A stretch of 64,000 bases of DNA from Amycolatopsis thermoflava N1165 (GTDB lineage Bacteria; Actinomycetota; Actinomycetes; Mycobacteriales; Pseudonocardiaceae). The first letter of the stretch is position 1. Every line of letters starts with the position of its first letter. The DNA lies in the NCBI RefSeq assembly GCF_000473265.1, contig NZ_KI421511.1:4005560-4069559 (forward strand). The letters are read 5' to 3'. Below, piece after piece: positions 43,487-59,164 of the stretch. Below the pieces are notes generated by a model, which was not told the DNA's origin, ran no database searches, and worked only from the letters and a program-made list of their open reading frames with translations. A program made the position numbers and the translations under genes.

Positions 43487-44299
43487 TCACGTTCGGCTGA
43501 GGAAGTCGTCCAGCAGCTTGTTGACGGTGTCCGGCACCTCGGCGGCGACGAGGTGGGCCGCGTCCTCGATGACGACCAGTTCGGCGCCCGGGATGGCGGC
43601 GGCCATCTCCTCCACCTCACCGGGCGGGAAGGTCGCGTCCTCCCGGCCGCCGATGACCAGCACGGGCGTGCTGATCGACGCGAGCAGCCCACGCTGGTCC
43701 GGCCGCCGGGACACGACGCTCGTCACCGCGTGCCTCACGGACCGCGGGTCGTTGCGGCGGGCCAGGTCCAGGACGCGGGCCACGACCTCCGGCCGGGTGC
43801 GCAGCGAGGTCGGCCCGAGGAACGCCTTGACCACCGACCGGGTGAGCGGCGGGCGGATGCCGCGCAGGACCCGCACCGCCGCCACGAGCACCGCGTACTC
43901 GGCCTTCTGACGGGCCGGGGCCGCGGAGGCGGTGCCGTTCATCAGAGTGCTGGTGAGCACCCGGTCCGGGTGGCGCGCGGCGAAGGTGGCCCCCACCATC
44001 GCGCCCCACGAGTTGCCGACGAAGTGCGTCCGCTCGAACCCGAGCGCGTCGAGGATCGCGAGGACCGCGGTGGCGCACTCGTCGAGCGTGAAGGTCCGGG
44101 TGAGCGGGCTGCTCGCCCCGTGCCCCGGTGGGTCGAGCGCGACGGTCGTGTAGCGGGGTGCCAGGTGGTCGGCCTGCGCCTGCCAGAGCGTGTGGTCCAT
44201 CAGGAGGCTGGGCCACATCAGGACCGGCTCGCCGGAGCCGCGCACGCGGACCCGGAGCGTGCCCAGGTCCGTCGCGATGTCGCGATCCTCGTTGATCAT
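43487..44299 (-). CDS. Alpha/beta hydrolase
   Basis: This is a 270-residue hydrolase from ATG 44299 (MINEDRDIATDLGTLRV). The nucleophile elbow is FVGNSWGAMVG (Ser), the acid is in GGREDATFPPG, and the histidine is in IEDAAHLVAAE. Oxyanion-region residues lie in DPPGHGASSP. It resembles ring-cleavage-product hydrolases and 3-oxoadipate enol-lactonases, but the sequence does not fix the substrate. It is 51 bp downstream of the KstD-like gene on the same strand and may be the last gene of that operon. Confidence 0.85.
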   Translation of the reverse strand: MINEDRDIATDLGTLRVRVRGSGEPVLMWPSLLMDHTLWQAQADHLAPRYTTVALDPPGHGASSPLTRTFTLDECATAVLAILDALGFERTHFVGNSWGAMVGATFAARHPDRVLTSTLMNGTASAAPARQKAEYAVLVAAVRVLRGIRPPLTRSVVKAFLGPTSLRTRPEVVARVLDLARRNDPRSVRHAVTSVVSRRPDQRGLLASISTPVLVIGGREDATFPPGEVEEMAAAIPGAELVVIEDAAHLVAAEVPDTVNKLLDDFLSRT

Positions 44300-44349
44300 G
44301 GTGCGCAGAGTACGCGGTGCTGGGCCCACCAACGTGGGACCCGCAGGCG

Positions 44350-46044
44350 TCAGGGGTGGGCGGCGTGGCGGGCGGCGAGGTAGCCGAACGTCAGGCCGGC
44401 GCCGACCTGGCAACCGGCGCCCGGGTATTCCGAGGCCATGATCGAGTTGGCGTCGTTGCCGCAGGCGTACAGCCCGCCGACCGGCTCACCGGACTCGCGG
44501 AGCACCTGGGCATCGACGTCCGTGCGCAGGCCCAGTGCGGTCGCCAGTGGGGTCGGCACCACGGCGATCGCGTAGAACGGGGCCTTCTCGATCGGGCCGA
44601 CGTTGACGTTCGGGGTGTGGGCGGGGTCGCCGTACTGGTGGCCGAACGTGCTCTCGCCCTTGCCGAACTCCTCGTCGACGCCCGTGCGGGCGAAGCGGTT
44701 GAACCCGGCCACCGTGGCCTCCAGTCCGGCCGGGTCCACCCCGATCGACGCGGCCAGCTCCCGCACCGTCGAACCGGTGTGCAGGTAGCCCGATGCGAGG
44801 TGCCGCTTCAGCAGCACCCGCGGCAGGTGCGGGTAGACCATCCCGAGCCCGTAGGCCGCGAGCGTCCGCGAGTCGACCACCAGCCACGCCGGGATCGTCG
44901 GCACGGACTTGTGCGAGTCGTACATCGCGCGTGTGAACCGGTGGTAGGACACGGATTCGTCGACGAACCGCCGCCCGGCCGCGTTGACCGCGATGATGCC
45001 GGGCTTGGCGCGGTCCCAGATGTGCGGGAACACCGCGGTCGACCCGTCCCGGCGGCGGCCGATCGAGCTCGGGAACCACAGCGCGTTGTCGTCGCGCGGT
45101 TCGCCAAGCGCGGCGCCCACCGCGGTGGCCAGCGAGATGCTGTCGCCGGTCGAGCCCTCGCCCGCCCGCGTGAACTGCGCTGTCGGCTGCGGCAGGTACC
45201 GCGCACGCAGCTCCGGGCTCGACGAGAACCCGCCCGCCGCCAGCACAACACCGCGCCGCGCCTCGACCCGCACCGTCCGGCCGCGCCGGGACACCACCGC
45301 CCCGGTCACGCGGCCCGACGAATCCGTCACCAGCTCGCTCGTGCGCGCGGTGAACCACACGTCACCGGAGCGCCGCAGCAACTGGTGGTACAGGTTCGCC
45401 ACCAGCGCGTTGCCCATCGCCAGCCGCGTGCCGCGCGGGTACCGCAGCCGGTCGAACGCCCACCGCACGCCGAGCCGCAGCGCGACCGCCATCCCGCGCA
45501 CCGAGCCGTCGAAGATCGTCAGCAGCTGGTTCACCTCGGGCCGCCGCACCATCAGCGTCCCGCCGAACAACGCGAACTCCGGCACCGGGCGCCGCACCCG
45601 CCCGAACCGCGCCCTGCCGAGCTTGCGGCCGTCGAACGTCCGCGGCTCCAGCGCCCGCCCGACCCCGGAACCGGGGATCTCCGGGTGGTAGTCGACGACG
45701 GTCTTCGAGTGCCAGAACCCGACGCCGATCCGCTCGAGATAGTCGAGCATCGCCGGCCCCTGCGCCAAATACGTCTCCCGCAGCTCGCGCGGCGCGCGAT
45801 CGCCCACCAGCGCGTCGAGGTAGCCGCTGGCGGCGGCCCGGTCAGCGGCCGGATCGGACTGGTACCGGTGCCCGGGGATCCAGCAGGTGCCCGCCGAGTA
45901 CGCCGTGGTGCCGCCCAACCACTCGGTCTTCTCCAGCGCCAGCACCGACAGCCCCTCCGCGGCGCCGACGACCGCCGCGCCAAGGCCGGCCGCGCCGGTG
46001 CCGAGGACCAGCAGGTCGACCGAGTGGTCCCAGTCGTCACTCAT
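44350..46044 (-). CDS. KstD-like FAD-dependent dehydrogenase 1
   Basis: This is a 564-residue flavoprotein of the fumarate reductase / 3-ketosteroid delta1-dehydrogenase superfamily. The FAD loop is [11 protein letters not shown] at residues 12-22, followed by [20 protein letters not shown]. The C-terminal FAD and active-site segment is [16 protein letters not shown], with the Y-x3-G pair that in KstD acts as proton donor and oxyanion site. A role desaturating a cyclic ketone next to the carbonyl is family knowledge; the substrate here is unknown. It overlaps aroE by 8 bp at the end of the transporter operon. Confidence 0.87.
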
Positions 46045-46858
46045 CGGTTGTCCTTCCCACGAGCACGTCCAGGTGCCCTCGCATGCGGTCGAGATCGGGA
46101 GTGGCGCCGGTGAGCACCTCGAGCGTCCGGGCGGCCTGCGCGACGAGCATCGCGCCGCCGTCGAGCACCCGGCAGCCCCTCGCGCGCGCCGCGGCCAGCA
46201 GCTCGGTCTCCAACGGCCGGTACACGACGTCGGCCACCCAGTGCCGCGGTTCCAACAGACGGGGATCGAACGGCACCCCGGGATGCCCGGTCATGCCGAT
46301 CGGCGACGCGTTCACGACACCGTCGGCGTCCGCCAGAACCACCGACGCCGCAGCGGAAACACCGAGCCGGGCCACCAGCGCCTCCCGGCGAGCCGCGTCG
46401 GGATCGACCACCGTCACCGCCGCGCCCGCGTTCGCCAGCGCGTAGGCCACGGCCGAGCCCGCTCCCCCGGCACCCACCACGACGACCCGGCCCAGTTCGG
46501 CATCCGGGAGCCCGTGCCGGAGCCCGGCGAGGAATCCACTGTGGTCGGTGTTGTGCCCGGTCAGCCGACCGCCGTCGATGGTCACCGTGTTGACCGCGCC
46601 CAGCGCACGGGCGTCCGGGGACAGGTCGTCGAGCTGCGGGATCACCGCCTGCTTGACCGGGTGCGTCACGTTGAAGCCGGTCAGGCCCACCGCGTCGCGC
46701 AACGTCCAGCCCGGCGGGAGGTCGTCGAGGTCGAGCAGGCCGTAGGTGTAGTCGAGGCCGAGCGCGGCGGCCTCGCGTTCGTGCAGCGCGGGCGAGAGCG
46801 ACCCGCCGATGTCCGCGCCGACCAACGCCACCCGGTGCCGGACGAGCACTTCAGACAT
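46037..46858 (-). CDS. aroE: Shikimate/quinate dehydrogenase family protein
   Basis: This is a 273-residue NAD(P)-dependent dehydrogenase. The substrate site shows [13 protein letters not shown], the catalytic lysine in NVTHPVKQ, and the aspartate in GHNTDHSGF. The nucleotide loop is [11 protein letters not shown]. Being inside a catabolic operon rather than an aro cluster, it is more likely a quinate/shikimate-type catabolic enzyme (as QsuD or YdiB) than the biosynthetic AroE; the symbol reflects the family only. It overlaps both neighbours by 8 bp. Confidence 0.85.
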
Positions 46859-47684
46859 GGGCGCTCACCAGGGCCCGCACCGCCGAGAGGTTCCGCTTCG
46901 CGAACTCCAGCGGGGTCAGCTCGGTCACCCGCGGCACCTCGACGCTCAACGGCGTCCCCTCCGGTGCCGCGGCGATGAGCGCGGCCAGCGGGAACTCCCC
47001 TTCGCCGGGCACCTGCCGCTGCACACGGGCCTCGACCTGGAGCACCGACCCGTCGGCCGTCATCCCGAGTGGCAGCTCGGCAGGCAGGTCCAGCCGTTCC
47101 GGCGCGGCCAGCGGGCCGTCGCACAGTTGCAGCACCGGCACGAGATCCGGGTCCAGCGCCCGCACGTCGTCGATCGTGCTGCCGCCGCGCTGGATGTGCA
47201 GCGGGTCGAGCAGCAGGGCCGCGCCGGCCGAAGAAGCGATCGCGGCGGCGTCGGCGACCGTGCTCACCGGCTGGTAGCTGATCGGTTCGAGCGTGGGCCG
47301 GATGCCCAGCTCCAACGCGTCCTCGGTCAGGGCCGCCAGCGTGTCGGTGAGCCGGCCGCGGTCGGGATCGCTGCCGGTGACGCTGATCGTCGACGCGCCG
47401 AGCGCGGCCCCGGCCTCCAGGGTCGCCGCCCAGTCGCCGGGCCGGGTGTCCGGGCCGAGTGCCAGGAACTCGATGTCGCGCACCCGCAGACCGGTGTCGT
47501 CAAGCCGGCGCACGGTTTCCCGTGACATCGGCGACCCGGCCGCCATCGGGTACTGCCGCTCCCCCACGGTCGCCGCCCGCACGCGGACGCCGACGAAGTC
47601 GAAGCCGGCTTCCGCCGCGGTGGTGACCAGTTCGGGTGGGCTGAGCCGCAGCAGCGTGAGGTGGGCGAGCCCGACGGACGTCAT
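46851..47684 (-). CDS. Sugar-phosphate isomerase/epimerase-like TIM-barrel protein
   Basis: This is a 277-residue AP-endonuclease-2-type TIM barrel starting at ATG 47684. Metal ligands of the superfamily can be placed at E in PTLEPISYQ, D and H in LLLDPLHIQR, D in LQLCDGP and E in LSVEVPRV. The same fold includes hydroxypyruvate isomerase, inosose dehydratase and 3-dehydroshikimate dehydratase. Next to a shikimate-dehydrogenase-like gene and an MHS transporter, a dehydroshikimate dehydratase-like reaction is a reasonable hypothesis, not shown. Confidence 0.82.
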   Translation of the reverse strand: MTSVGLAHLTLLRLSPPELVTTAAEAGFDFVGVRVRAATVGERQYPMAAGSPMSRETVRRLDDTGLRVRDIEFLALGPDTRPGDWAATLEAGAALGASTISVTGSDPDRGRLTDTLAALTEDALELGIRPTLEPISYQPVSTVADAAAIASSAGAALLLDPLHIQRGGSTIDDVRALDPDLVPVLQLCDGPLAAPERLDLPAELPLGMTADGSVLQVEARVQRQVPGEGEFPLAALIAAAPEGTPLSVEVPRVTELTPLEFAKRNLSAVRALVSAHV

Positions 47685-48757
47685 ACGGTGATCTCCTCGT
47701 TCAGGGACGGAACCCGCTCCGGGCGGCCGGAGCGGGCCGAGGCGTACAGCGCGGTGAGGATCGCGAGGGACTTGGCGGCCTCGCGTCCGGTGACGGCGGG
47801 GTCGCGCCCGTCCCGCACCGCGTCGGCGAATTCGGCGATCTGCAGCGCGTGGAACGGCGCGAGGCTGCCGTTGATCTCCGCCAGCGGCCGGTCCGCGGAC
47901 AGGCCGGGCCCGAACGGCGAGGTGACGGCCTCCGCACCGGGCACGGCCCACACGTCGATGCGGGCCTCGCTGCCCTCCGGGTACTCGGCCAGGCCCGCGG
48001 TCGCGCCCGTCCGCCCGGTGACCTGCACCCGCGTGCCCAGACCGGGGGTCAATGCGGTCGACGCGGACAGGGTCGCGAGCGCGCCCGAGGCGAACCGCAG
48101 CGTCGCGACCGCGGTGTCCTCGACCTCGATGGCCGCGCCGTGCTTGACGGTCGCGTGCGCCGCGCTCACCTCGACCGCCTCGCCGAGGAACCACTGCAGC
48201 AGGTCGATGTTGTGCACGGCCTGGGTCATCAGCACGCCACCGCCGTCGGTCGCCCACATGCCCCGCCATGCATCGGCCGTGTAGTACGACGTGTCGCGGT
48301 GCAGCAGGACCGAGGCGTGGCCGAGGATCGGCTCACCGAGCGTGCCGTCGTCGATCGCCGCGCGGATGCGCTGAGCCGCGGGCCAGAACCGGCGCTGGAA
48401 CAACACCCCGAGGGTCACACCGGCCGCCTCGCACGCGGCCACCATGCGAGCGGCCGCGCCGAGGTCGATCGCGATCGGCTTCTCGCACAGCACGTGCACG
48501 CCGTGCGCGGCGGCCTGGGTGACCACCGCCTCGTGCGTCGGGTGCGGGGTGCAGACGCTGACCACGTCCAAGCCGAGGTCGAACAGCTCCTCCGGGGTGG
48601 CCGCGGCGGCGCCGTACCGGGCGGCGAAGGCAGCGGCGCGCGAGGGGTCGACGTCACTGCACGCCACCAGCTCGACACCCGGCAGGTCGCGGTAGGCCGC
48701 GGCGTGGTTGCCGGCGACGTTGCCGCAGCCGACCACGCCGGCCCGCAGCACGGTCAT
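47681..48757 (-). CDS. Gfo/Idh/MocA-family oxidoreductase
   Basis: This is a 358-residue NAD(P)-dependent dehydrogenase from ATG 48757. The N-terminal Rossmann fold has [16 protein letters not shown]. The CEKPIAID motif holds the catalytic lysine, and [13 protein letters not shown] holds the D-x-x-x-H-type site (H-N-I-D here). Family members oxidise sugars, inositols and cyclic polyols. Both ends overlap the neighbouring genes by 4 bp, so it is part of the transporter operon. The longer open frame upstream is antisense or read-through of the transporter gene. Confidence 0.9.
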
Positions 48758-50100
48758 CCACGCACCGCCTCGGCGGCCGGCGTCTCCACTGTGGACTCCC
48801 GATCGCCGAGCCGGGCCGTCGGGATCCGGAACGTCTCCGGACCGGTCAGCGCGGCGAGCGCGGAGGCCACCACGAACGCGGCGCACATCCACGCCACGGG
48901 CGTCCAGTTCGCCTTGTCGCCCGCGGTGAGCGCGGTGGCCAGCAGCGGGGTGAACCCGGCGGCCAGCAGCCCGACCATCAGGCCGATCGCCATCCCGCTG
49001 TAGCGGACGCGGGCCGGGAACTGCTCCGGGAAGTAGGCCGGGTAGACGCCGTTGGGCGCGGCGTAGCAGAAACCGATCAGCAGCACGGCCGAGCCGTAGA
49101 TCCACGGCACGTTGCCGGTGCCGATGGCGTCGAAGAACACGAACACCATCACGCCGACGCCGATCAGCCCGGTCACGAACACCGGTTTGCGCCCGATCCG
49201 GTCGGCGATCAGCCCGTACACCGGCTGTGTCACCACGGCGACCACGTTGGCGACCGAGATGACCGCGAGCATGGTCGGTTTCGCGACGCCCTCGACCTCG
49301 GTGGCGTAGGCCAGCGCGAACACGTTGACGATGGTGTTGACCATGGCGAAGCTCGCGCACACGGCGATCCGCAGCACGGTCAGCCAGTGGTCGCGGAACA
49401 GCTCGACGATCGGCGCCTTCGCGGTTTCCGCCGACTCCTGCAGCTCGGCGAACACCTCCGGCTCGTGCAGCGAGCGGCGCAGGAAGTAGGCGATCGCGGT
49501 GACGGCGATGGACAGCCAGAACGGGATCCGCCAGCCCCACGAGTACAGCTGGTCGTCGGGCAGCGCCGCGACCGGGATGAACACGATGCTGGACACGACG
49601 ATGCCGAACATGATCCCGCTCATCGTGAAGCTGGTGAAGAACGCGCGACGCCGGTCGGGGGCGTGCTCGACGGTCAGTGAGCTGGCGCCGGGTGACTCGC
49701 CGCCAGCGGACAGGCCCTGCAGCAACCGCAGCGCGACCAGCAGGATCGGCGCGGCGATGCCGATCGAGGAGTAGGAGGGCAGGCAGCCGATCAGGAAGGT
49801 CGACGCGCCCATCATCAGCAGTGTGGCCATCAGCGCGTTGCGGCGGCCGAGCCGGTCGCCGAAGTGTCCGAAGAGGACAGCGCCGAGCGGGCGGGCGACG
49901 TAGGCGACGCCCAGCGTGGCGATCGAGAGCAGGGCACCGGTGGCGCCCGCGTCCGGGAAGAAGACCTTGCCGAACACGAGTGCCGCGGCCGAACCGTAGA
50001 TGAAGAAGTCGTAGTACTCGAGGGTGCTCCCGAGGAACCCGGAGAGCGCGGCTTTCCGGGGATCGTTGCGGGTACCGCTCGAGTGTGGGGCGCGAGACAT
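48754..50100 (-). CDS. MFS transporter, metabolite:H+ symporter (MHS) family
   Basis: This is a 448-residue protein with 12 membrane helices. MHS features: the N-terminal [18 protein letters not shown] helix and the loop motif [13 protein letters not shown], repeated in weaker form as ADRIGRKP in the second half. The MHS family takes up organic acids such as citrate, proline/betaine, dicarboxylates and shikimate (ShiA). It is the first gene of the five- or six-gene minus-strand operon, with a LysR-type element upstream at 50.16-50.21 kb. Confidence 0.92.
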
Positions 50101-50159
50101 GGCGCCTCCTTTCGATCCGGCGTCGTCGACGGTGGGGTTGCCGACGAGGATCGCAGGCG

Positions 50160-50210
50160 GAACTATGTCGCGTCCAATACTTGGTTTTGCTTACACAATG
50201 TGCGCGAGAA
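50160..50210 (-). promoter_or_regulatory. Probable LysR operator of the transporter operon (element A)
   Basis: The minus strand reads CGCGCACATTGTGT, a short spacer, then AACCAAGTATTGGACGCG. The core is an inverted repeat CCAA-GTA-TTGG (complement of 50174-50184). An almost identical element in the same order and orientation follows the second lysR gene (54995-55045). It lies between the lysR1 stop and the transporter start. Confidence 0.7.
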
Positions 50211-50216
50211 GCATAA

Positions 50217-51113
50217 TCAGTGCTCTGGCGTCGGGAGGACCTCCTCGGCGAGATCGAGTACGGCCTTGAGCACGGGCGAGGGGTTGTCGTCCAGCCACGC
50301 CAGCGCGTGGTCCATGTACGTGGGCTCGCCGCGCAGGGGCACGAACACCGCCGCCGACGGCATGATCCCGGCGACGCCGGACGACATCAGCGCGACGCCG
50401 ACGCCGGCCGAGACCAGGGTCAGGATCATGTACGGGTCGGTGATCTCCTGGATCACGCGCGGCCGGAAGCCGGCCTTGACGCACGCCTGCATCGCCAGCT
50501 CCTGCAGCGCCGAACCGGTGGCGGCGGGGGTGGTGATGAACCCCTCGTCGGCGAGATCGGCGAGGTCGATCTCGCGTTCCCTGGCGAGCGGGTGGTCGAT
50601 CGGCAGCGCGGCGCCCAGCGGTTCCCGCCCGATGAGCCGGGTGCGTACCGGGGACGGGTCGATCGGCAGCCCGACGAACGCGATGTCGAGGCCGCCCTGT
50701 TCGAGCTGCTCGACCCCGTCGCGGGTCATCACGCGGCCGGTCAGGGACAGCTGGACCTCTGGGTAGCGCTGCCGGACGGCGCGGGTCAGCGGCGGCAGCG
50801 TGAGGTGGTTGAGCGCACCGGAGAACCCGATCGACACCGTGCCGTACACCACTCCGGAGGTCGCGCGCGTCGCCTGGCGGCCCAGCTCCAGCTCCTCGAA
50901 CACGCGGTGCGCGTGCGGCAGGAACGCATGCCCCGCCGGGGTGAGCGTGACACTGCGCGTGCTGCGGTCGAACAGCGTCGTACCCAGCTCTTTTTCCAGC
51001 TTGCGAATGGTCTGGCTCAGCGGCGACTGGGCCAGCCGCAGGCGCGCGGCGGCGCGGCCGAAGTGCAGTTCCTCGGCGACGGCGACGAACGCCTCGAGCC
51101 ACCGGATCTCCAT
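50217..51113 (-). CDS. LysR-family transcriptional regulator 1
   Basis: This is a 298-residue regulator starting at ATG 51113 (MEIRWLEAFVAVAEELHFGR). The winged helix is AARLRLAQSPLSQTIRKLEK and the effector domain starts near residue 90 (GTVSIGFSGALNHLTLPP). By eye it is well over half identical to LysR2 (54109-54993), and the two recognition helices differ at only a few positions. It is divergent from FAD-dehydrogenase gene 2 and lies upstream of the transporter operon. The Pro/Arg-rich open frame upstream of the ATG is not part of it. Confidence 0.93.
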   Translation of the reverse strand: MEIRWLEAFVAVAEELHFGRAAARLRLAQSPLSQTIRKLEKELGTTLFDRSTRSVTLTPAGHAFLPHAHRVFEELELGRQATRATSGVVYGTVSIGFSGALNHLTLPPLTRAVRQRYPEVQLSLTGRVMTRDGVEQLEQGGLDIAFVGLPIDPSPVRTRLIGREPLGAALPIDHPLAREREIDLADLADEGFITTPAATGSALQELAMQACVKAGFRPRVIQEITDPYMILTLVSAGVGVALMSSGVAGIMPSAAVFVPLRGEPTYMDHALAWLDDNPSPVLKAVLDLAEEVLPTPEH

Positions 51114-51265
51114 GACGTCCTCCCGAACTCGGGGGCTTGCGCCGGCCCGGGTTCCACTTATAGTCGTCTGGCAACACAGTTGACCAGCAATTTTATCGCA
51201 AATCTTACATAGTCCTGGAGCGCGGTGCACACAGTCCGCCCGGGACGTCAGGGAGGAACAGCGTC
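51114..51265. promoter_or_regulatory. Divergent promoter region, lysR1 and FAD dehydrogenase 2
   Basis: This 152-bp gap contains an unusually AT-rich stretch (about 51160-51215, including ATTTTATCGCAAATCTTACA). It does not carry a full copy of the CCAA-GTA-TTGG element found after both lysR genes. A good ribosome site GGAGGAA lies at 51251-51257 for the plus-strand gene. It is the expected site of LysR1 autoregulation. Confidence 0.5.
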
Positions 51266-52978
51266 GTGACCACCCGAGCACAGCAGGAGTACGACGTGGT
51301 CGTCGTCGGCTCCGGAGCGGGCGGGCTCGCCACCGCGGTGACCGCCGCCCACCACGGCCTGAAGGTCGCCGTCCTCGAACGCGCCGACGTCTGCGGTGGC
51401 GCGACGGCGTGGTCCGGCGGCTGGATGTGGGCGCCGGGCAACCCCCTCGCCCGCGCCGACGGCGTTCGCGAGGACACCGGGGAGTTCCGCCGCTACCTGC
51501 GCGCGGCACTCGGCGGCGACTACGAGCCCGAGCGCGTCGACGCGTTCCTCGCCGCCGCCCCGGAGATGGTGCGGTTCTTCCACGAGCGCACGGCGCTGAA
51601 GTTCGTGCCGGGCACGAAGATCTGCGACATCTACGGCGACCTGCCGGGCGCGGGGACCGGGCACCGCTCGGTCGCGCCCGAGCCCGCGGACCTGCGCGAG
51701 CTCGGCGACGACGTCGCACGGATCCTGCGCCGCCAGCTGTACGAGACGTCGTTCCTCGGCCTGGGTGTGATGGCCGGGCCCGATCTGGCCGCGTTCCTCG
51801 CCGCCTCGCGCGGGAACCTCCGCGGTCTGGCGCACGCGTCGCGCCGGGTCACCCGGCACCTGCTCGACCTGGCCACGAAACGCCGGGGCATGCAGCTGGT
51901 CAACGGCACCGCGCTGGTCGGCAGGCTGTTGCGGTCGGCGCTGGACCTCGGCGTCGACATCCGCGTGTCCGCGCCGGTCACCGAGCTGGTCCACGAGGAC
52001 GGGCGGGTCACCGGGGTCGTCGCGTCCACTTCGGACGGACCGCTGCGGCTGGTGGCCGCGCGGGGTGTGGTGCTCGCCGCGGGCGGGTTCCCGCGCGACC
52101 CGAAGCGCCGCATGGAGCTGTTCCCGCACGGTGACACGCACTGGACCCTCGCCCCTGTCACGGCCGACGGCGCCGGGATCGGCCTGGGCGAGCAGGCCGG
52201 CGGGCGGCTGCGCACGGATCTCGCCTCACCCGCCGCGTGGTGCCCGGTGTCGCTGGTGCCGTATCGCAACGGCCGCACCGGCGTGTTCCCGCACATCATG
52301 GACCGCGCGAAACCCGGCAGCATCGGTGTGCTGCGGGACGGGCGCCGGTTCGTCAACGAGGCCAACGGCTACTACGACTACGTCTCCGCGCTGCTCGCCG
52401 CGACCCCGCCCGGCGAAACGGCGGAGGCGTGGCAGATCGCGGACGCCCGGTTCGTGCGCCGGTACCCGCTGGGCATGGCGAAACCGTTGCCGGTGCCGCT
52501 GTTCCCGTACCTGCGCAGCGGTTACCTCAAACGCGGCCGCACGCTGGAGGAGCTGGCCCGCAAGTGCGGCATCGACCCGGCCGGGCTGGTCGCGACCGTC
52601 GAGGAGTTCAACAAGGGCGCTCGTCGCGGTGAGGACCCGGCGTTCGGGCGCGGCTCGTCGCCGTTCAACCGCTACGGCGGCGACCAGTCGGTGACACCGA
52701 ACCCGTCCCTCGCGCCGCTGGAGAAGGGCCCGTTCTACGCGGTGCGGATCGTGCCCGGCAGTTTCGGCACCTTCGCCGGCCTGGCGACCGATGCCCGCGC
52801 CCGGGTCCTGGGTGAGCACGACCAGCCGATCCCGGGGCTCTACGCGGTGGGCAACGACCAGGCGAGCGTGATGGGCGGCCACTACCCGGCGGGCGGGATC
52901 AACCTCGGCCCCGCCATGACGTTCGGCTGGATCGCGGCCCGCGATCTGGCCGGCATCGACTCGGAGGTGACAGCATGA
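51266..52978 (+). CDS. KstD-like FAD-dependent dehydrogenase 2
   Basis: This is a 570-residue flavoprotein starting at GTG 51266. The FAD loop is VVVGSGAGGLATAV, followed by CGGATAWSGGWMWAPGN. The C-terminal segment VGNDQASVMGGHYPAGGIN contains the conserved Y-x3-G and is very close to that of true 3-ketosteroid delta1-dehydrogenases. It leads the operon FAD2-VOC-SDR-lysR2. It and the flavoproteins at 44.35 and 56.3 kb are three paralogues in 13 kb. Confidence 0.9.
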   Translation: MTTRAQQEYDVVVVGSGAGGLATAVTAAHHGLKVAVLERADVCGGATAWSGGWMWAPGNPLARADGVREDTGEFRRYLRAALGGDYEPERVDAFLAAAPEMVRFFHERTALKFVPGTKICDIYGDLPGAGTGHRSVAPEPADLRELGDDVARILRRQLYETSFLGLGVMAGPDLAAFLAASRGNLRGLAHASRRVTRHLLDLATKRRGMQLVNGTALVGRLLRSALDLGVDIRVSAPVTELVHEDGRVTGVVASTSDGPLRLVAARGVVLAAGGFPRDPKRRMELFPHGDTHWTLAPVTADGAGIGLGEQAGGRLRTDLASPAAWCPVSLVPYRNGRTGVFPHIMDRAKPGSIGVLRDGRRFVNEANGYYDYVSALLAATPPGETAEAWQIADARFVRRYPLGMAKPLPVPLFPYLRSGYLKRGRTLEELARKCGIDPAGLVATVEEFNKGARRGEDPAFGRGSSPFNRYGGDQSVTPNPSLAPLEKGPFYAVRIVPGSFGTFAGLATDARARVLGEHDQPIPGLYAVGNDQASVMGGHYPAGGINLGPAMTFGWIAARDLAGIDSEVTA

Positions 52979-53424
52979 ACCCGCCGGGCAGGATCGACCA
53001 GGTCGGCATCGTCGTGCGCGACCTCGACGCCGCGGCGGACGGGATGCGCCGCGTGTTCGGCGCCGAACCGCACACCCGCCAGGAGAACACCTACCGCCGC
53101 ACGACCTACCGCGGCGACGAGATCGACGCGATCGTCGGGGTGATGCTCTACGACCTCGGCGGGATCGAGCTGGAATTCCTGGCCCCCCGCAGTTCCGGCA
53201 ACGTGTGGCAGGACTTCCTCGACGAACGCGGCGAAGGGCTGCACCACATCCGCTTCGCCGTCGACAGCCACACCGCCGCGCGCGACGACCTGCACTCCCG
53301 CGGTGTGGAGACATACCAGGAGGGCGAGTCGATGCGCGGCGGCGGAGTCCGATACGCCTACTACGACACCGTGCCCCAGCTCGGTTTCCTGATCGAGACC
53401 TTGAACCCGGGAGGGCGGGCGTGA
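52975..53424 (+). CDS. VOC-family protein (methylmalonyl-CoA epimerase-like)
   Basis: This is a 149-residue protein with two VOC half-modules (IDQVGIVVRDLDAAADGM, then GLHHIRFAVDS). The metal ligands would be the H in H-H-I-R-F and E in GGIELEFLAP and near the C-terminus (FLIETLNP). This is the layout of methylmalonyl-CoA epimerase and of the C-terminal domain of bacterial 3-dehydroshikimate dehydratases, though the latter match is speculative. It is coupled to FAD2 and to the SDR gene by 4-bp overlaps. Confidence 0.87.
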   Translation: MNPPGRIDQVGIVVRDLDAAADGMRRVFGAEPHTRQENTYRRTTYRGDEIDAIVGVMLYDLGGIELEFLAPRSSGNVWQDFLDERGEGLHHIRFAVDSHTAARDDLHSRGVETYQEGESMRGGGVRYAYYDTVPQLGFLIETLNPGGRA

Positions 53425-54107
53425 GCTACCCCGATGTGACGGCTCTGGTGACCGGTGGCGCGAGCGGCATCGGTGCGGCGGTCGCGACCCGGTTGCGCGC
53501 CGAGGGTGTCCGGGTGGTCACCGCCGACCTCGCCCCCGGCGCCGACGAAAAGCTCGACGTCACCGACCCGGAAGCCGTCGACGCGCTCGTGGCCGCACTG
53601 GGCCCGGTCGGGATCCTCGTGCACAGCGCGGGGATCGTCGGGCCGTCGAAACCGGTGGCCGAAATCGGGTTCGAGGAGTGGCGGACCACGTTCCGCGTCA
53701 ACGTGGACGGCACGTTCCTGATGTGCCGCGCGGTCGTCCCCGGCATGGTCCGCGCGGGCTGGGGCCGGATCGTCACCATGGCGAGCATCGCGGCCAAGGA
53801 CGGCAACCCGGCGCAGAGCGCGTACTCGGCGTCGAAGGCCGCGGTCGTCGGGTTCACCAAGTCGCTCGGCAAGGAGCTGGCCACGACCGGGGTGCTGGTC
53901 AACGCCGTCGCCCCGGCCGCTGTCGAGACGCCGATGAACGCGCACACCGACCCGGCCGTGCTGGCCCGGTCCCAGTCGCTGACGCCGATGGGCCGGTTCG
54001 GGAAACCGGAGGAAATCGCCGAGCTGGTGGCGTGGCTGTGCTCGGCGCGGGTCAGCTTCTCCACCGGCGCGGTCTACGACGCCAGTGGCGGGCGGGCGAG
54101 CTACTGA
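53421..54107 (+). CDS. Short-chain dehydrogenase/reductase
   Basis: This is a 228-residue classical SDR from GTG 53421. The nucleotide loop is VTGGASGIGAAVA, HSAGIVG is the N-A-G equivalent (S-A-G here), the catalytic Ser lies in TMASIAAKDG, and Y-x3-K is in SAYSASKAAVVGF. PMGRFGKPEEIA is the usual late segment. It would interconvert a hydroxyl and a ketone in the pathway; ring hydroxy-acid substrates are plausible from context only. Confidence 0.92.
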   Translation: MSYPDVTALVTGGASGIGAAVATRLRAEGVRVVTADLAPGADEKLDVTDPEAVDALVAALGPVGILVHSAGIVGPSKPVAEIGFEEWRTTFRVNVDGTFLMCRAVVPGMVRAGWGRIVTMASIAAKDGNPAQSAYSASKAAVVGFTKSLGKELATTGVLVNAVAPAAVETPMNAHTDPAVLARSQSLTPMGRFGKPEEIAELVAWLCSARVSFSTGAVYDASGGRASY

Positions 54108-54108
54108 C

Positions 54109-54993
54109 GTGGAGATGCGGTGGATCGAGGCGTTCCTCGCCGTCGCCGAGGAGCTCCACTTCGGACGCGCCGCGGAGCGGCTGCACATGGCGCAGTCCCC
54201 GCTGTCCCAGACGATCAAGAAGCTGGAAAAGCACGTCGGGGCCCCGCTGTTCGACCGCACCACCCGCGCGGTCACGCTGACCTCCGCCGGGCACGGGTTC
54301 CTCCCGCACGCCCGGCGGATCGTCGCCGAGACCGACCTCGCGCTGCGGGCGACGAGCGCGGGCCCGGGCGAGGTGTACGGCCGGGTGCGGCTCGGGTTCT
54401 CCGGCGCGCTCAACCACCTCACACTGCCGCCGCTGACCCGCACGCTGCGCACCCGGCACCCGCACATCGCGCTGCAGCTGGTCGATCGGGTCACCACGGA
54501 GGACGCCGTCGGGCTGATCGAGCACGGCACGCTCGACATCGCCTTCGTCGGCCTGCCCGCGCCCGGATCACTGCCGAGCCGGGTCGTCACGGTCGAGGAG
54601 CTGGGCGCCGCGCTGCCCTCGGACCACCGGCTGGCCGGCCACGACGAGGTGTCGCTGGCCGATCTGGGCGCCGAGGACTGGGTGCTGATGCCCGGGCAGT
54701 CCGCGCTGCGCACGGTCATCCTCACCGCGTGCCACACCGCGGGGTTCCGGCCGCGGCTCGCGCAGGAGGTCAAGGACCCCTACGTCGTGATGTCCCTGGT
54801 CGCGGCCGGTCTGGGCGTGTCGCTGGCGCCGACATGCCTGCGGCCGATCATGCCAGCGGGCGCGGTGTGGGTGCCGCTGGCCGGCTCGCCGCCCCTGCTG
54901 CGCAGTGCGCTGCTCTGGCACCCGGACCGGCTCACCGACGCCGTCCGCGCGCTGCTCGACGTCGCGGCCGAAGTACTGCCCACGCCGGGATAA
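54109..54993 (+). CDS. LysR-family transcriptional regulator 2
   Basis: This is a 294-residue regulator. GTG 54109 (VEMRWIEAFLAVAEELHFGR) matches the N-terminus of LysR1 exactly in register, so I choose it over upstream starts. The HTH is AERLHMAQSPLSQTIKKLEK and the effector domain opens LGFSGALNHLTLPPLTR, a segment almost identical to LysR1. It begins 1 bp after the SDR stop and is followed by element B and the YciI operon. LysR1 and LysR2 probably arose by duplication and may bind the same sites. Confidence 0.92.
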   Translation: MEMRWIEAFLAVAEELHFGRAAERLHMAQSPLSQTIKKLEKHVGAPLFDRTTRAVTLTSAGHGFLPHARRIVAETDLALRATSAGPGEVYGRVRLGFSGALNHLTLPPLTRTLRTRHPHIALQLVDRVTTEDAVGLIEHGTLDIAFVGLPAPGSLPSRVVTVEELGAALPSDHRLAGHDEVSLADLGAEDWVLMPGQSALRTVILTACHTAGFRPRLAQEVKDPYVVMSLVAAGLGVSLAPTCLRPIMPAGAVWVPLAGSPPLLRSALLWHPDRLTDAVRALLDVAAEVLPTPG

Positions 54994-54994
54994 A

Positions 54995-55045
54995 GTGCGA
55001 TTCGCACACAATGTCTGCCGAACCATGTATTGGACTCGCACAGTC
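54995..55045 (+). promoter_or_regulatory. Probable LysR operator of the YciI-ADH-FAD3 operon (element B)
   Basis: The perfect inverted repeat GTGCGA-T-TCGCAC (54995-55007) is followed by ACAATGTCTGCCG and AACCATGTATTGGACTCGCA. The CCA-TGTAT-TGG core (55023-55033) and its flanks match element A at 50.16-50.21 kb in the same orientation relative to the lysR gene and the operon it precedes. It lies between the lysR2 stop and the YciI start. Confidence 0.7.
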
Positions 55046-55066
55046 GTGGCGGCGCACGCTGCTGGC

Positions 55067-55342
55067 ATGGCTACCTTCGCAGTGCAGTACACCTACGGCG
55101 CGAACACCGACGCCGCCCGTGACCGTTTTCGCCCGGAGCACAAGGACTTCCTCGCCGGCCTGTACGAGTCCGGCCGTCTGCGCGTGTCCGGTCCGGTGGA
55201 CGGCGGGGCGCTGCTGATCTTCGAGGGAGCGTCGGCCGACGAGGTCGCCGCGCTCCTCGACGACGATCCGTTCCGCCGCGAGGGGCTGATCGCCGAGCGC
55301 ACCGTGCGCGAGTGGACGATCTTCTTCGGGGGCCTCAAGTGA
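55067..55342 (+). CDS. YciI-like (dimeric ferredoxin-fold) protein
   Basis: This is a 91-residue protein from ATG 55067 (MATFAVQYTYG). The YCII fold shows as an FAVQYTY strand, R-P-E-H-K-D-F-L with the conserved histidine, GRLRVSGPVDGG, and the DDDPFRREGLI motif with the D-P-F signature. Some YciI proteins act in chloro-aromatic pathways (e.g. muconolactone isomerase-like or dehydrochlorinase roles); function here is unknown. It opens the second plus-strand operon and overlaps the ADH start by 4 bp. Confidence 0.88.
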   Translation: MATFAVQYTYGANTDAARDRFRPEHKDFLAGLYESGRLRVSGPVDGGALLIFEGASADEVAALLDDDPFRREGLIAERTVREWTIFFGGLK

Positions 55343-56313
55343 AGGTCGCGCGCACGCTCGCGCGCGAGCGCATCGAAATCCAGGAGGTCCCGGACCCGCG
55401 GCCGGGTGCGGGCGAGGCGCTGGTCCGCGTCCACACGGTCACCCTGTGCGGCACAGACCTGCACATCTGGGAGGACGACTATGCCACCGAGCTGCCGATC
55501 GTGCAGGGCCACGAGATCGCCGGGATCGTGGAAAGCGCACCGGGTTTCGCGCCGGGCGACCCGGTCGCCGCGTCGCCGATGCGGTACTGCGGCGAGTGCT
55601 ACGCCTGCGGCATCGGGCGGGTCAACGCGTGCCGGTCCTCGTCCTGCCTCGGCTGTTACGAGGACGGTGCGCTGGCCGAGCTGATCGCCGTCCCGGTGAC
55701 CGATCTGCACCGGATCCCGGACGGGATGCCGACCGGGCTCGCCGCGCTGGCCGAACCCACGAGCATCGCGATGCAGGCGGTGCTGCGTGGCCGCCCGGAG
55801 AAGGGCGAGCAGGCGCTGGTGCTGGGCTGCGGTCCGATCGGGCTGCTGGCGACCCTGCACCTGACGTCGCTCGGGGTCGAGGTGGTCGCGGCGGACACCG
55901 CGCCGGAGCGGGCCGCCTTCGCCCGCCGGTTCGGGGCGGTCGCGGGCATCGACCCGTCGGAGGTGCCCGGGGAGCCGTCGCTGGTGATCGAAGCGACCGG
56001 GGCGCCCGCCGCGCTGACCACGGCCGTGGACGTCGTCGCCACCGCGGGCCGGGTCGTGCTCGTCGGCATCTCGGACCGGCCGGTGACGCTGTCGATGCGG
56101 ACGTTGCCGGTCAAGGACCTCGACCTGCTCGGCAGCCGGAACAGCCAGCGCCGCATCGGCGAGGCGCTCGAACTCCTCGACGCGCACCGCGAAGCGGCCG
56201 AAGCGCTGGTCACGCACCGCGTGCCGTTCGCGCGGGTCGCGGACGCGTTCCCGCTGCTGCGGTCGCGGGACGAGCTCGTCGGGAAGGTCGCCGTGGAGGT
56301 GTTCTCATGCTGA
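55339..56313 (+). CDS. Zinc-dependent alcohol dehydrogenase (MDR family)
   Basis: This is a 324-residue medium-chain dehydrogenase from GTG 55339. The catalytic zinc ligands are C in TLCGTDLH and H-E in QGHEIAGIV. The structural-zinc segment is CGECYACGIGRVNAC. The nucleotide loop is VLGCGPIGLLATLHL. It is close to the threonine/sorbitol-dehydrogenase type. Within this operon it would oxidise a secondary (ring) alcohol to the ketone needed by the adjacent FAD dehydrogenase; this coupling is inference. It overlaps FAD3 by 7 bp. Confidence 0.9.
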   Translation: MKVARTLARERIEIQEVPDPRPGAGEALVRVHTVTLCGTDLHIWEDDYATELPIVQGHEIAGIVESAPGFAPGDPVAASPMRYCGECYACGIGRVNACRSSSCLGCYEDGALAELIAVPVTDLHRIPDGMPTGLAALAEPTSIAMQAVLRGRPEKGEQALVLGCGPIGLLATLHLTSLGVEVVAADTAPERAAFARRFGAVAGIDPSEVPGEPSLVIEATGAPAALTTAVDVVATAGRVVLVGISDRPVTLSMRTLPVKDLDLLGSRNSQRRIGEALELLDAHREAAEALVTHRVPFARVADAFPLLRSRDELVGKVAVEVFSC

Positions 56314-57875
56314 CCTCACGACCGCGGGACCGTTACGACGTGGTGGTCGTCGGCAGCGGTGCCGCGGGGCTGACGGCCGCCGTGGCTGCGGCTGATGCCG
56401 GAATGTCCGTTGTCGTGCTGGAAAAAGCCGCACAGCTGGGCGGCACGTCCGCGGTCGGCGGCGGGGTCATCTGGGCGCCGGGCAACGACCTGATGGCCGA
56501 GGCCGGGTTCCCCGACTCCCCGGCCGCCGCGCGCGCCTACCTCGGCACCGGCCGGATGAGCGCCGCGGAGATCGACGCCTACGTCGCGGACGCGCCGGCG
56601 GCGATCCGGTTCCTCACCCGTGCCGGGGTGCGGATGCGCCCGCTCGCCCGGCCCGACTACCACCCGGAGTGGCCCGGCGCGGCGCGCGGCCGCGGACTCG
56701 ACCAGGAGCCGTTCGACCCGCGCCCGTGGCCGGGACTCGCCGAGGCGATCCGCCCGCCGACCTACTTCCCGCTGATCACGATGGCCGAGCGGGACGCGCT
56801 GGCCGGCGGGGCCGCCGACCCGGGCCTGCTCGCCCAGCGGGCCGCCGACGGCGTCCGGACCATGGGCGGCGCGCTCGTCGGCCGGCTGCTCGTGGCCGCG
56901 CTCGAACGCGAGGTCGACATCGTGGCCGGCACCCCGGTGACCGGGCTCGAACCCGGCTGGACCGTCCGGGCGGGCCGCGAGATCCGCACGTCGGCCGTGG
57001 TCCTCGCCTCCGGCGGGTTCGAGTGGAATCCCACGCTGCGGGAGGCGTTCCTGCCCTTCCCGGTCACCCCGATCAGCGCGCCGAGCAACACCGGGGACGG
57101 CCTGGTCCTCGGGTTGCGGGCGGGCGCGGCGGTCGGCGACATGACCGCGGTGTGGGGCGTGCCGGTGCTCACCCCGCCCACCGCGCGCTACGACGGGCAG
57201 CAGTCCGGCCGGATGGGCAACGTCGAGATGACGCTGCCCGGTTCGCTCACCGTGACCGCCGCCGGGCGCCGGTTCGTCAACGAGGCCACCAACTACCACG
57301 ACCTCAACCGCGCGTTCGGCCCGATCGGCTCGCGCGCGTTCCTCGTGTTCGACCGCGCCTACCTGGACCGCTACCCCGTCGCCGGCTGCTCTGGTCCGCA
57401 ACCGTGGATGGTTCAGGCAGACACCGTGGCCGGGCTCGCGGCGGCCGCGGGAATCGATCCGGCTCTCGTCGAGACGGTCGAGGCGTTCAACGCGGCCGCG
57501 CGTCGCGGCGAGGACCCGGAGTTCGGCCGCGGTCAGAGCCCGCAGGACCGCCACCTCGGCGACCCGGCGGTCACCCCGAACCCGTGCCTCGCTCCGGTCG
57601 AGACCGCGCCGTTCTTCGCGGTGCCGGTGCACGCCGGAGTGCTCGGCACCGCGGGTGGCCTGGCGACCGACGGGAACGGTCAGGTGGTCGACCACGACGG
57701 CGCGCCGATCCCGGGGCTGTACGCGGCGGGTAACTGCGCGGCGACCCTGTTCCACGACGCCTACCCGGGCGGCGGCGCGACGCTGGGCTCGGCGGTCGTG
57801 CGGGCCTACCGGGTCGGACAGCATCTGGGATCGCTGGCCCGGTCCGTGGAACGGGAGGTAGCGTCGGCCGGGTGA
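56307..57875 (+). CDS. KstD-like FAD-dependent dehydrogenase 3
   Basis: This is a 522-residue flavoprotein from ATG 56307. The FAD loop is VVVGSGAAGLTAAVAAA, then EKAAQLGGTSAVGGGVIWAP. The C-terminal segment is GNCAATLFHDAYPGGGATL with the same Y-x3-G pair. It is the shortest and most divergent of the three paralogues. The GTG of metY overlaps its stop by 4 bp. A desaturase role is assumed from the family; fumarate-reductase-like activity cannot be excluded. Confidence 0.88.
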   Translation: MLTSRPRDRYDVVVVGSGAAGLTAAVAAADAGMSVVVLEKAAQLGGTSAVGGGVIWAPGNDLMAEAGFPDSPAAARAYLGTGRMSAAEIDAYVADAPAAIRFLTRAGVRMRPLARPDYHPEWPGAARGRGLDQEPFDPRPWPGLAEAIRPPTYFPLITMAERDALAGGAADPGLLAQRAADGVRTMGGALVGRLLVAALEREVDIVAGTPVTGLEPGWTVRAGREIRTSAVVLASGGFEWNPTLREAFLPFPVTPISAPSNTGDGLVLGLRAGAAVGDMTAVWGVPVLTPPTARYDGQQSGRMGNVEMTLPGSLTVTAAGRRFVNEATNYHDLNRAFGPIGSRAFLVFDRAYLDRYPVAGCSGPQPWMVQADTVAGLAAAAGIDPALVETVEAFNAAARRGEDPEFGRGQSPQDRHLGDPAVTPNPCLAPVETAPFFAVPVHAGVLGTAGGLATDGNGQVVDHDGAPIPGLYAAGNCAATLFHDAYPGGGATLGSAVVRAYRVGQHLGSLARSVEREVASAG

Positions 57876-59164
57876 GTGAGCGCAGCTGGGGCTTCCGCAC
57901 CCGCGCCCTGCACGCCGGCGGGTCTCCCGATCCGGTGACCGGGGCGCGGGCGGTGCCGATCTACCAGACCACGAGTTTCGTCTTCGAGGACGCGGCCGAC
58001 GCGGCGAACCTGTTCGCGTTGCAGAAGTACGGCAACATCTACAGCCGGATCGGCAACCCGACCGTGGCGGCCTTCGAAGAACGCCTCGCCAGCCTGGAGG
58101 GCGGCATCGGCGGCGTCGCGACCAGCAGCGGGCAGGCCGCGGAGTTCCTCACGTTCGCGGCGCTCACCGAGGCCGGCGACCACGTCGTGTCGGCGAGCGG
58201 GCTCTACGGCGGCACCGTCACGCAGCTGGACGGGACGCTGCGCCGCTTCGGCGTGGACACGACCTTCGTGGCCGGCGACAGCCTCGACGACTACGCGGCC
58301 GCGATCACCGACCGCACCCGGTTGATCTTCACCGAGGTCATCGGCAACCCGAGTGGCGGCATCGCGGACCTCGCCGGGCTCGCCGACCTCGCGCACAGTC
58401 ACGACATCCCGCTGGTGGTCGACGCGACGCTGGCGACGCCGTACCTGTGCCGCCCGATCGAGCACGGCGCGGACATCGTGCTGCACTCGGCGACGAAGTT
58501 CCTCGGCGGGCACGGCACCACGCTCGGCGGGATCGTCGTCGAATCGGGCACCTTCGACTGGGGCAACGGGAAGTTCCCGCGCATGACCGAGGTCGTGCCC
58601 AGCTACGGCGGCCTCAAGTACTGGGAAAACTTCGGCGAGTACGCGTTCTGCACCCGGCTGCGCGCCGAGCAGCTGCGCGACATCGGCGCGGTGCTGTCGC
58701 CGCATTCGGCGTTCCTGCTGCTCCAGGGCGTCGAGACGCTGCCGCAGCGGATGGACGCGCACCTGGCCAACGCCAAGGCGGTCGCGGAGTTCCTGGACGC
58801 CGACGACCGCGTGGCGTGGGTGAGCTACGCCGGGCTGCCCGGGCACAAGCACCACGAGCTGGCGAAGAAGTACCTGCCGCTCGGGCCGGGCGCGGTGTTC
58901 TCGTTCGGTGTCAAGGGCGGGCGCGCGGCCGGGGAGAAGTTCGTCGAGTCCGTCGAGCTGCTGTCGCACCTGGCGAACGTCGGCGACGCCCGCACGCTGG
59001 TCATCCACCCCGCGTCCACGACGCACCAGCAGCTCTCCGACGAGCAGCTGAAGGCGGGCGGCGTCGGCCCGGACCTGATCCGGCTGTCGGTGGGGCTGGA
59101 GGACGCCGAGGACATCCTGTGGGACATCGACCAGGCCCTCACCGCGGCGGTGAAGGCCGCATGA
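57872..59164 (+). CDS. metY: O-acetylhomoserine sulfhydrylase / PLP-dependent Cys-Met metabolism enzyme
   Basis: This is a 430-residue PLP enzyme of the trans-sulfuration family with the length and features of Met[13 protein letters not shown] near residue 53, the SSGQAAEFL loop, the PLP lysine in [16 protein letters not shown], and [11 protein letters not shown] near the C-terminus. It would make homocysteine (or methionine) from O-acetylhomoserine and sulfide or methanethiol. It starts inside the FAD3 stop codon region, so it is read with the catabolic operon, although its role may be independent. Confidence 0.92.

Follow-up and report, generated by a model that had tools for sequence, protein, structure and literature searches.

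Gene content and layout of the locus

A stretch of 64,000 nucleotides from the 8.69 Mb genome of Amycolatopsis thermoflava N1165 (NCBI RefSeq assembly GCF_000473265.1, contig NZ_KI421511.1, positions 4,005,560 to 4,069,559), here called the window, was analyzed for a cluster encoding three KstD-like flavin adenine dinucleotide (FAD) proteins, designated FAD A, FAD B, and FAD C. The window has a guanine plus cytosine content of 72%. By profile searches and reading frames, 15 genes were mapped across the cluster and its flanks. Operon I on the minus strand consists of genes for an MFS/MHS-type permease, a Gfo/Idh/MocA dehydrogenase, a triosephosphate isomerase (TIM) barrel protein, hereafter TIM, an AroE-like dehydrogenase, and FAD A; a hydrolase gene follows after a gap. 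The regulator gene LysR1 lies upstream of operon I and diverges from operon II. The latter, on the plus strand, encodes FAD B, a VOC protein, and a short-chain dehydrogenase/reductase (SDR) and is followed by LysR2. Operon III, also on the plus strand, encodes YciI, a zinc alcohol dehydrogenase (ADH), and FAD C, with a metY-like gene next. Adjacent genes inside the operons overlap by 4-8 bases. Positions below are those of the window, scores are in bits, and the fullest relatives are the eight related loci described further on.

44350..46044, minus: FAD A, KstD-like flavoprotein of 564 amino acids; PF00890 268.5; nearest model PRK12843 (NF009477 614, under the cut-off of 758)
46037..46858, minus: AroE/QsuD-like quinate/shikimate dehydrogenase; NF009201 331 (cut-off 235); top solved relative 3jyo, a quinate/shikimate dehydrogenase
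46851..47684, minus: TIM barrel with a single domain, akin to the N-domain of the dehydroshikimate dehydratase QuiC; PF01261 41.4 (cut-off 31.1)
47681..48757, minus: Gfo/Idh/MocA dehydrogenase; PF01408 and PF22725 above cut-off; present in 7 of 8 fullest relatives
48754..50100, minus: MFS permease, probably an MHS-type organic-acid importer; PF07690 and PF00083 above cut-off; in 8 of 8 fullest relatives
50217..51113, minus: LysR regulator 1, divergent from FAD B; PF03466 140, PF00126 82; position kept in several relatives
51266..52978, plus: FAD B, KstD-like flavoprotein of the PRK12839 group; PF00890 350.6; NF009476 965 (cut-off 940)
52975..53424, plus: VOC-family protein; PF13669 53; overlaps FAD B by 4 bases; in 4 of 8 fullest relatives
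53421..54107, plus: SDR dehydrogenase; PF13561 170; ChcB2 model NF053701 162, under the cut-off of 350
54115..54993, plus: LysR regulator 2; PF03466 136, PF00126 82
55067..55342, plus: YciI-like small protein of 91 amino acids; PF03795 45.4 (cut-off 24); kept ahead of ADH in relatives; no NCBIfam match at 1e-15
55339..56313, plus: zinc ADH; PF08240 85
56307..57875, plus: FAD C, KstD-like flavoprotein; PF00890 226.5; ChcC1 model NF053676 346, under the cut-off of 1000

Two further genes flank the set; neither had a match in the stretches of the eight fullest relatives.

43487..44299, minus: alpha/beta hydrolase, PcaD-like by family models; probably outside the system
57872..59164, plus: O-acetylhomoserine sulfhydrylase, metY-like; TIGR01326 600 (cut-off 495); outside the system

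A sequence-only reading of this DNA had listed a zinc ADH, an SDR, an AroE-like enzyme, a Gfo/Idh/MocA oxidoreductase, a TIM barrel, VOC and YciI proteins, an alpha/beta hydrolase, and an MHS importer, and Pfam matches were obtained for every one of these classes. For the importer, PF07690 and PF00083 support an MFS permease; the MHS label is probable and was given by inference, not assigned by a tool. The AroE/QsuD-like dehydrogenase appears, by reading of its sequence, to be of the NAD type, and it fails the equivalog model for quinate/shikimate dehydrogenases of the C. glutamicum type (NF010631, 219 against a cut-off of 515). Neither a 3-dehydroquinate dehydratase nor a cytochrome P450 was found among the 15 mapped genes, and a two-domain QuiC is likewise missing from the cluster. 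Steroid-specific genes, too, are absent from the mapped set, as the earlier reading had stated. The two LysR proteins, which that reading had overlooked, are paralogous to each other, and one stands beside each operon group.

Relationships and active sites of the flavoproteins

FAD A, B, and C each matched the FAD_binding_2 profile PF00890 (cut-off 20.4 bits) along its full length. They represent three of the 12 near-full-length PF00890 matches of the genome and all lie inside 13.5 kb; with random placement, some three of 12 such proteins would fall within this distance with P ~0.002. The earlier claim of three FAD dehydrogenases within 14 kb that keep the Y-x3-G pair was confirmed. They had been described as paralogues, but A, B, and C are old, separate subfamilies and not recent duplicates.

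The model for 3-oxosteroid 1-dehydrogenase, NF005882 (cut-off 788), gave 412 bits for A, 423 for B, and 311 for C, whereas the host's own KstD at C1:8.147 Mb, the positive control, scored 960. A 45-row tree was calculated from a chosen subset of loci, including 7 of the 12 KstD loci plus the host KstD. The eight KstD rows formed a single branch (support 100/100) which excluded A, B, and C. By these scores and by the separate branch, the reading of A, B, and C as steroid enzymes was rejected; the comparison with KstD proposed in the earlier reading thus places the flavoproteins apart from genuine steroid dehydrogenases. In the same tree, C-type rows joined a ChcC1 anchor (98/93), B-type rows a ChcC2 anchor (100/99), and A-type rows grouped with proteobacterial partners. 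A 61-row tree, made without the rows of loci L044, L069, L088, L104, and L127 and without the OYE-type (old yellow enzyme) protein, repeated both joins (C with ChcC1, 98/92; B with ChcC2, 96/85). A single genome, G151, is the source of both anchors, each of which passes its own model, namely NF053676 for ChcC1 (1010 against a cut-off of 1000) and NF053677 for ChcC2 (1019.5 against 900). G151 also carries a set of B, aldo-keto reductase (AKR), TIM, OYE, and Gfo genes and a set of YciI, ADH, and C genes on a contig other than that of the Chc anchors; therefore, the two systems are distinct.

The active site was compared using KstD1 numbering, in which we take Tyr119, Tyr318, Tyr487, and Gly491 to be the catalytic positions with the roles assigned to them. 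Equivalents of Tyr318, Tyr487, and Gly491, and with them the Y-x3-G pair, were kept in all 45 aligned rows, A, B, and C among them. A Tyr119 equivalent was aligned in 27 of 27 non-B rows, including A and C, and in none of the 18 B-type rows, which have I, V, T, M, or F instead; a Tyr or His is adjacent in 17 of these. As judged from the alignment, loss of Tyr119 marks the B subfamily but does not prove that its mechanism is new. The three proteins thus share with KstD the fold and three catalytic positions, but fall in other clades and far under the equivalog cut-off, and B is without Tyr119.

FAD C was found in two of 396 genomes of a phylum sample at 1e-100, one being the genome of the window, and had no match in plasmid records at 1e-80.

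Conservation of the gene set and its quinate/shikimate neighbourhood

The gene set is real and conserved. TIM loci were sampled as the best 80 of 113 named loci found with a single sequence pattern, and the counts given here describe that sample; B-type matches below 48% identity were not counted as B. Eight of the 80 loci carry 9-11 of the 11 core genes in rearranged order. They belong to four actinobacterial families and come from Prauserella flavalba, Prauserella alba, Pseudonocardia oroxyli, Saccharopolyspora, Streptomyces, Brevibacterium, and two Microbacterium. In Pseudonocardia oroxyli, for example, LysR2-YciI-ADH-C follows FAD A; in locus L053, the FAD A assignment is based on a weak 37% match at a contig edge. 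As gene order has changed among the relatives, shared function explains co-conservation better than mere linkage, and in those relatives that have the genes these stand together and are not dispersed. In a family sample of 150 genomes, 19 had a match to the TIM gene at 1e-15. Five of the 19, including the window's own, carry an FAD-linked cluster; four others, viewed at five places over about 20 kb each, showed none, and the remaining genomes were viewed with short flanks.

FAD B was present in 27 of the 80 loci and was a same-strand neighbour of TIM in 18. AroE occurred on 19 of the 27 loci with B, as compared to 10 of the 53 without B. The association of B with TIM recurs beyond the actinobacteria in Halomonadaceae, Rhodobacterales, and Burkholderiales. 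B-TIM pairs of Rhodobacterales adjoin AroE and a Tct carrier; the pair of Marinovum is accompanied by QuiC and AroQ, that of Paracoccus by two AroE genes, QuiC, and an FAD A-like gene, that of Paraburkholderia by AroE, Gfo, and SDR, and that of Rhodococcus rhodochrous by MFS, AroE, AKR, and Gfo. In halomonads, B-TIM adjoins genes for a coenzyme A (CoA)-transferase, a thiolase, and a lyase, and pcaC-like and pcaD-like genes. In Bosea, Paracoccus, and Paraburkholderia, proteins related to FAD A are encoded in the vicinity of FAD B and TIM, and in S. meliloti Rm41 such a protein is encoded next to a TIM gene.

Two variant B-TIM clusters (L166 and L134) contain an OYE/FadH-type flavoprotein and an aldo-keto reductase, and neither stretch showed an FAD A-type protein. 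On a plasmid of Janthinobacterium lividum (L129), a TIM relative and a shikimate dehydrogenase stand beside condensation-domain, ketosynthase, and CoA-transferase genes, an arrangement that perhaps reflects biosynthetic use of related chemistry.

The TIM protein was compared with the N-domain of QuiC. All nine QuiC residues considered, E133, D160, H163, D189, R220, R223, G227, G229, and E249, which include the metal site and the RxxR pair, were present in 21 of 21 TIM rows; among QuiC rows, E133 was kept in 13 of 14 and the remaining eight in 14 of 14. In a TIM tree calculated by a quick method, 22 QuiC-adjacent rows, picked at random from 38 such loci, formed one nested group (Shimodaira-Hasegawa-like approximate likelihood ratio test, 99). 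The best-scoring solved relative by sequence was Lmo2234 of Listeria (1.7e-15). Listeria also possesses the dehydroshikimate dehydratase QuiC2, which may be Lmo2234; we know of no KstD-like partner there. The idea that TIM is the sole dehydroshikimate dehydratase was weakened because many genomes have QuiC and TIM at one and the same locus.

A proposed aromatisation pathway and its alternatives

We consider it reasonably probable, on the strength of gene content and comparison, that the locus encodes a catabolic system which aromatises saturated or partly saturated hydroaromatic carboxylates. The earlier proposal of a system for a hydroaromatic or cyclic keto acid is supported by the quinate/shikimate genes of relatives and the pca-type genes of halomonads, except that the alpha/beta hydrolase, which it had included, is not conserved with the set. 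From the computed gene set, its co-conservation, the non-steroid phylogeny, and the quinate/shikimate neighbourhood, we infer the following reactions and substrate. The MHS-type permease would import the acid, and NAD-linked dehydrogenases (AroE/QsuD-like, Gfo/Idh/MocA, zinc ADH, and SDR) would turn a ring hydroxyl into a ketone. TIM, as a single-domain relative of dehydroshikimate dehydratase, would eliminate the beta-hydroxyl to give a cyclohexenone, and the flavoproteins would then take ring hydrogens adjacent to the ketone. The ChcC1-like FAD C may act on saturated ketones without a leaving group and carry out a first desaturation, the ChcC2-like FAD B may catalyze the final, aromatising desaturation, and FAD A may accept some other substrate or isomer. 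A 3-oxo hydroaromatic acid that loses its beta-hydroxyl through TIM would thus need one flavin step to become protocatechuate, by analogy with the route from 4-oxocyclohexanecarboxylate. Protocatechuate would finally enter the beta-ketoadipate route by means of pcaGH-type genes elsewhere in the genome.

An aerobic route in which two consecutive desaturases aromatise 4-oxocyclohexanecarboxylate to 4-hydroxybenzoate is described in an excerpt of PMC9795900. The Chc pathway of Sinomonas cyclohexanicum resembles the proposed one in that a ring hydroxyl becomes a ketone and consecutive desaturations by KstD-fold enzymes (ChcC1, ChcC2) yield an aromatic acid; the window cluster differs in having no P450 and in having an AroE/QsuD-like dehydrogenase, a dehydroshikimate-dehydratase-like TIM barrel, Gfo, and a third flavoprotein. 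With the qui/qsu systems (QsuD/QuiB, AroQ, QuiC/QsuB), it shares an AroE/QsuD-like dehydrogenase, a dehydroshikimate-dehydratase-like TIM, an acid importer, and LysR control, and some relatives of the set carry AroQ and QuiC alongside. However, it lacks 3-dehydroquinate dehydratase and the two-domain QuiC and contains three flavin desaturases in addition.

Our best single guess for the substrate is dihydroshikimate (3,4,5-trihydroxycyclohexanecarboxylate) or 3,4-dihydroxycyclohexanecarboxylate, formed from plant quinate by lactic acid bacteria. Lactobacilli produce 3,4-dihydroxycyclohexanecarboxylate as well as the trihydroxylated acid. B-TIM would serve acids without a C1 hydroxyl or a 1,2-double bond, which would explain its presence beside the AroE-AroQ-QuiC route. 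According to its title, the paper of Carr et al. 1957, cited in PMC10558750, reports that lactic acid bacteria reduce quinic acid to dihydroshikimic acid, and a passage of PMC7427622 states that chlorogenic acid may become dihydroshikimic acid.

Several observations weigh against this pathway. Each join of B and C to the Chc proteins depends on a single, long-branched anchor, the 61-row tree flagged the C-ChcC1 join as long branches meeting, and the placement of FAD A differs between the two trees. Moreover, A, B, and C all remain under the Chc cut-offs (B reaches 498 on ChcC2), and B has lost Tyr119. QuiC is a neighbour of TIM in 38 of the 80 loci, and no locus has both B-TIM and QuiC-TIM adjacency. 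QuiC occurs on 10 of the 27 loci with B as compared to 39 of the 53 without B, and AroQ on five of 27 as compared to 15 of 53; the classical genes hence accompany TIM more often when B is absent. Eight of the 27 B loci show no AroE, and the B-TIM pairs of Bosea vaviloviae and Phyllobacterium, like several of Arthrobacter and Rhodococcus, have no AroE in the stretch viewed. A Rhizobium plasmid carries TIM, AroE, AroQ, and Gfo and no KstD-like protein. Furthermore, the set is patchy, with the TIM gene in none of the six other genomes of the same genus listed. Finally, fold comparison of TIM gave tied scores for IolI (28.6), QuiC (28.3), and Lmo2234 (28.2), so that an epimerase role is possible.

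An unlikely alternative is a side branch of quinate/shikimate degradation, in which FAD B desaturates 3-dehydroshikimate at C4-C5 to gallate and TIM serves as a parallel dehydratase or as an epimerase of stereoisomers. B is ChcC2-like, the substrate of ChcC2 is an enone acid as is 3-dehydroshikimate, AroE, AroQ, and QuiC stand beside B in several genomes, and the host has five LigB-type matches. However, A and C would be left without explanation, the halomonad neighbours are genes of the protocatechuate ortho-cleavage type, and a gallate dioxygenase was not observed next to the set, though no search by name was made there. It is quite improbable, too, that the cluster degrades a cyclitol or glycoside, with Gfo/Idh/MocA and zinc ADH oxidising an inositol-like ring, TIM acting as an isomerase or dehydratase of the IolI/IolE type, and the flavoproteins aromatising the product. 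The similarity of Gfo to inositol dehydrogenases and DgpA, the match of zinc ADH to the inosose dehydrogenase model (below its cut-off), and the tied fold score of IolI would agree with this, but TIM retains the RxxR pair of QuiC. The recurrent partners, AroE, AroQ, QuiC, Tct or MHS-type carriers, and pca-type genes, are carboxylic-acid genes, and the context in the window is one of hydroaromatic-acid genes, unlike that of inosose isomerase/dehydratase.

The known cyclohexanecarboxylate (Chc) cluster is a very improbable identity for the locus. B and C are sisters to the ChcC2 and ChcC1 anchors and the SDR matches the ChcB2 model below its cut-off; yet the flavoproteins score far under the Chc cut-offs, P450 is absent from the mapped genes, both kinds of system occur on different contigs of G151, and AroE, TIM, and Gfo do not appear in the Chc scheme as excerpted from PMC9795900. 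Degradation of a steroid or terpenoid ring deserves hardly any credence. The fold and three of the four KstD catalytic residues are common to all three flavoproteins and all four are found in A and C, but this is opposed by the low NF005882 scores relative to the host KstD, the separate clades, and the lack of any steroid gene among the 15 mapped.

Regarding the aromatisation of hydroaromatic acids, the host genome contains a QuiC-like dehydratase domain at C1:7.224 Mb (54% over its N-domain) and pcaGH/C/D-like genes at C1:7.505 Mb. Protocatechuate hence has an outlet, and the window set probably adds to the basic quinate route. A search of the open-licence PMC literature yielded neither a paper linking KstD-like flavoproteins with quinate/shikimate genes nor a description of the system. 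The public records viewed name the flavoproteins "FAD-dependent oxidoreductase", once "kstD", and TIM "sugar phosphate isomerase" or "TIM barrel protein". More tentatively, and with doubts prevailing, the set may represent an undescribed oxidative aromatisation, widespread among aerobic bacteria from two or more phyla, which would recover saturated ring acids (dihydroshikimate, dihydroxycyclohexanecarboxylate) left by anaerobic reduction of plant quinate/shikimate, using a diverged relative of dehydroshikimate dehydratase and a Tyr119-less subfamily of flavin desaturases. If so, a recurring gene set could be assigned to a pathway and a likely chemistry to the NCBIfam groups PRK12839/PRK06134 and PRK12843, and it would become testable what happens to the saturated hydroaromatic acids from lactic fermentation of plant quinate. 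Enzymes that selectively desaturate the rings of small polyhydroxylated acids would, in addition, be of use in biocatalysis.

The maleylacetate reductase and intradiol dioxygenase genes beside TIM and an FAD protein in S. meliloti Rm41 had prompted a further idea, oxidative decarboxylation of dehydroquinate to hydroxyquinol. It was dropped because the host genome has a similar set elsewhere, with no KstD-like protein among the matches. In the host region C1:7215001-7235000 (L155), at about 9.1-10.9 kb, the QuiC-like matches are split, with TIM and VOC domains in different reading frames. The region C1:1199001-1219000 (L156) encodes consecutively, at about 8.6-12.7 kb, a maleylacetate reductase, an intradiol dioxygenase, a QuiC-like TIM barrel, an NTF2-like protein, and an SDR. 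The maleylacetate reductase, the dioxygenase, and the NTF2-like protein match clustered genes of S. meliloti pRM41A (53, 52, and 66%, respectively), and L156 is a separate set, perhaps linked to hydroxyquinol.

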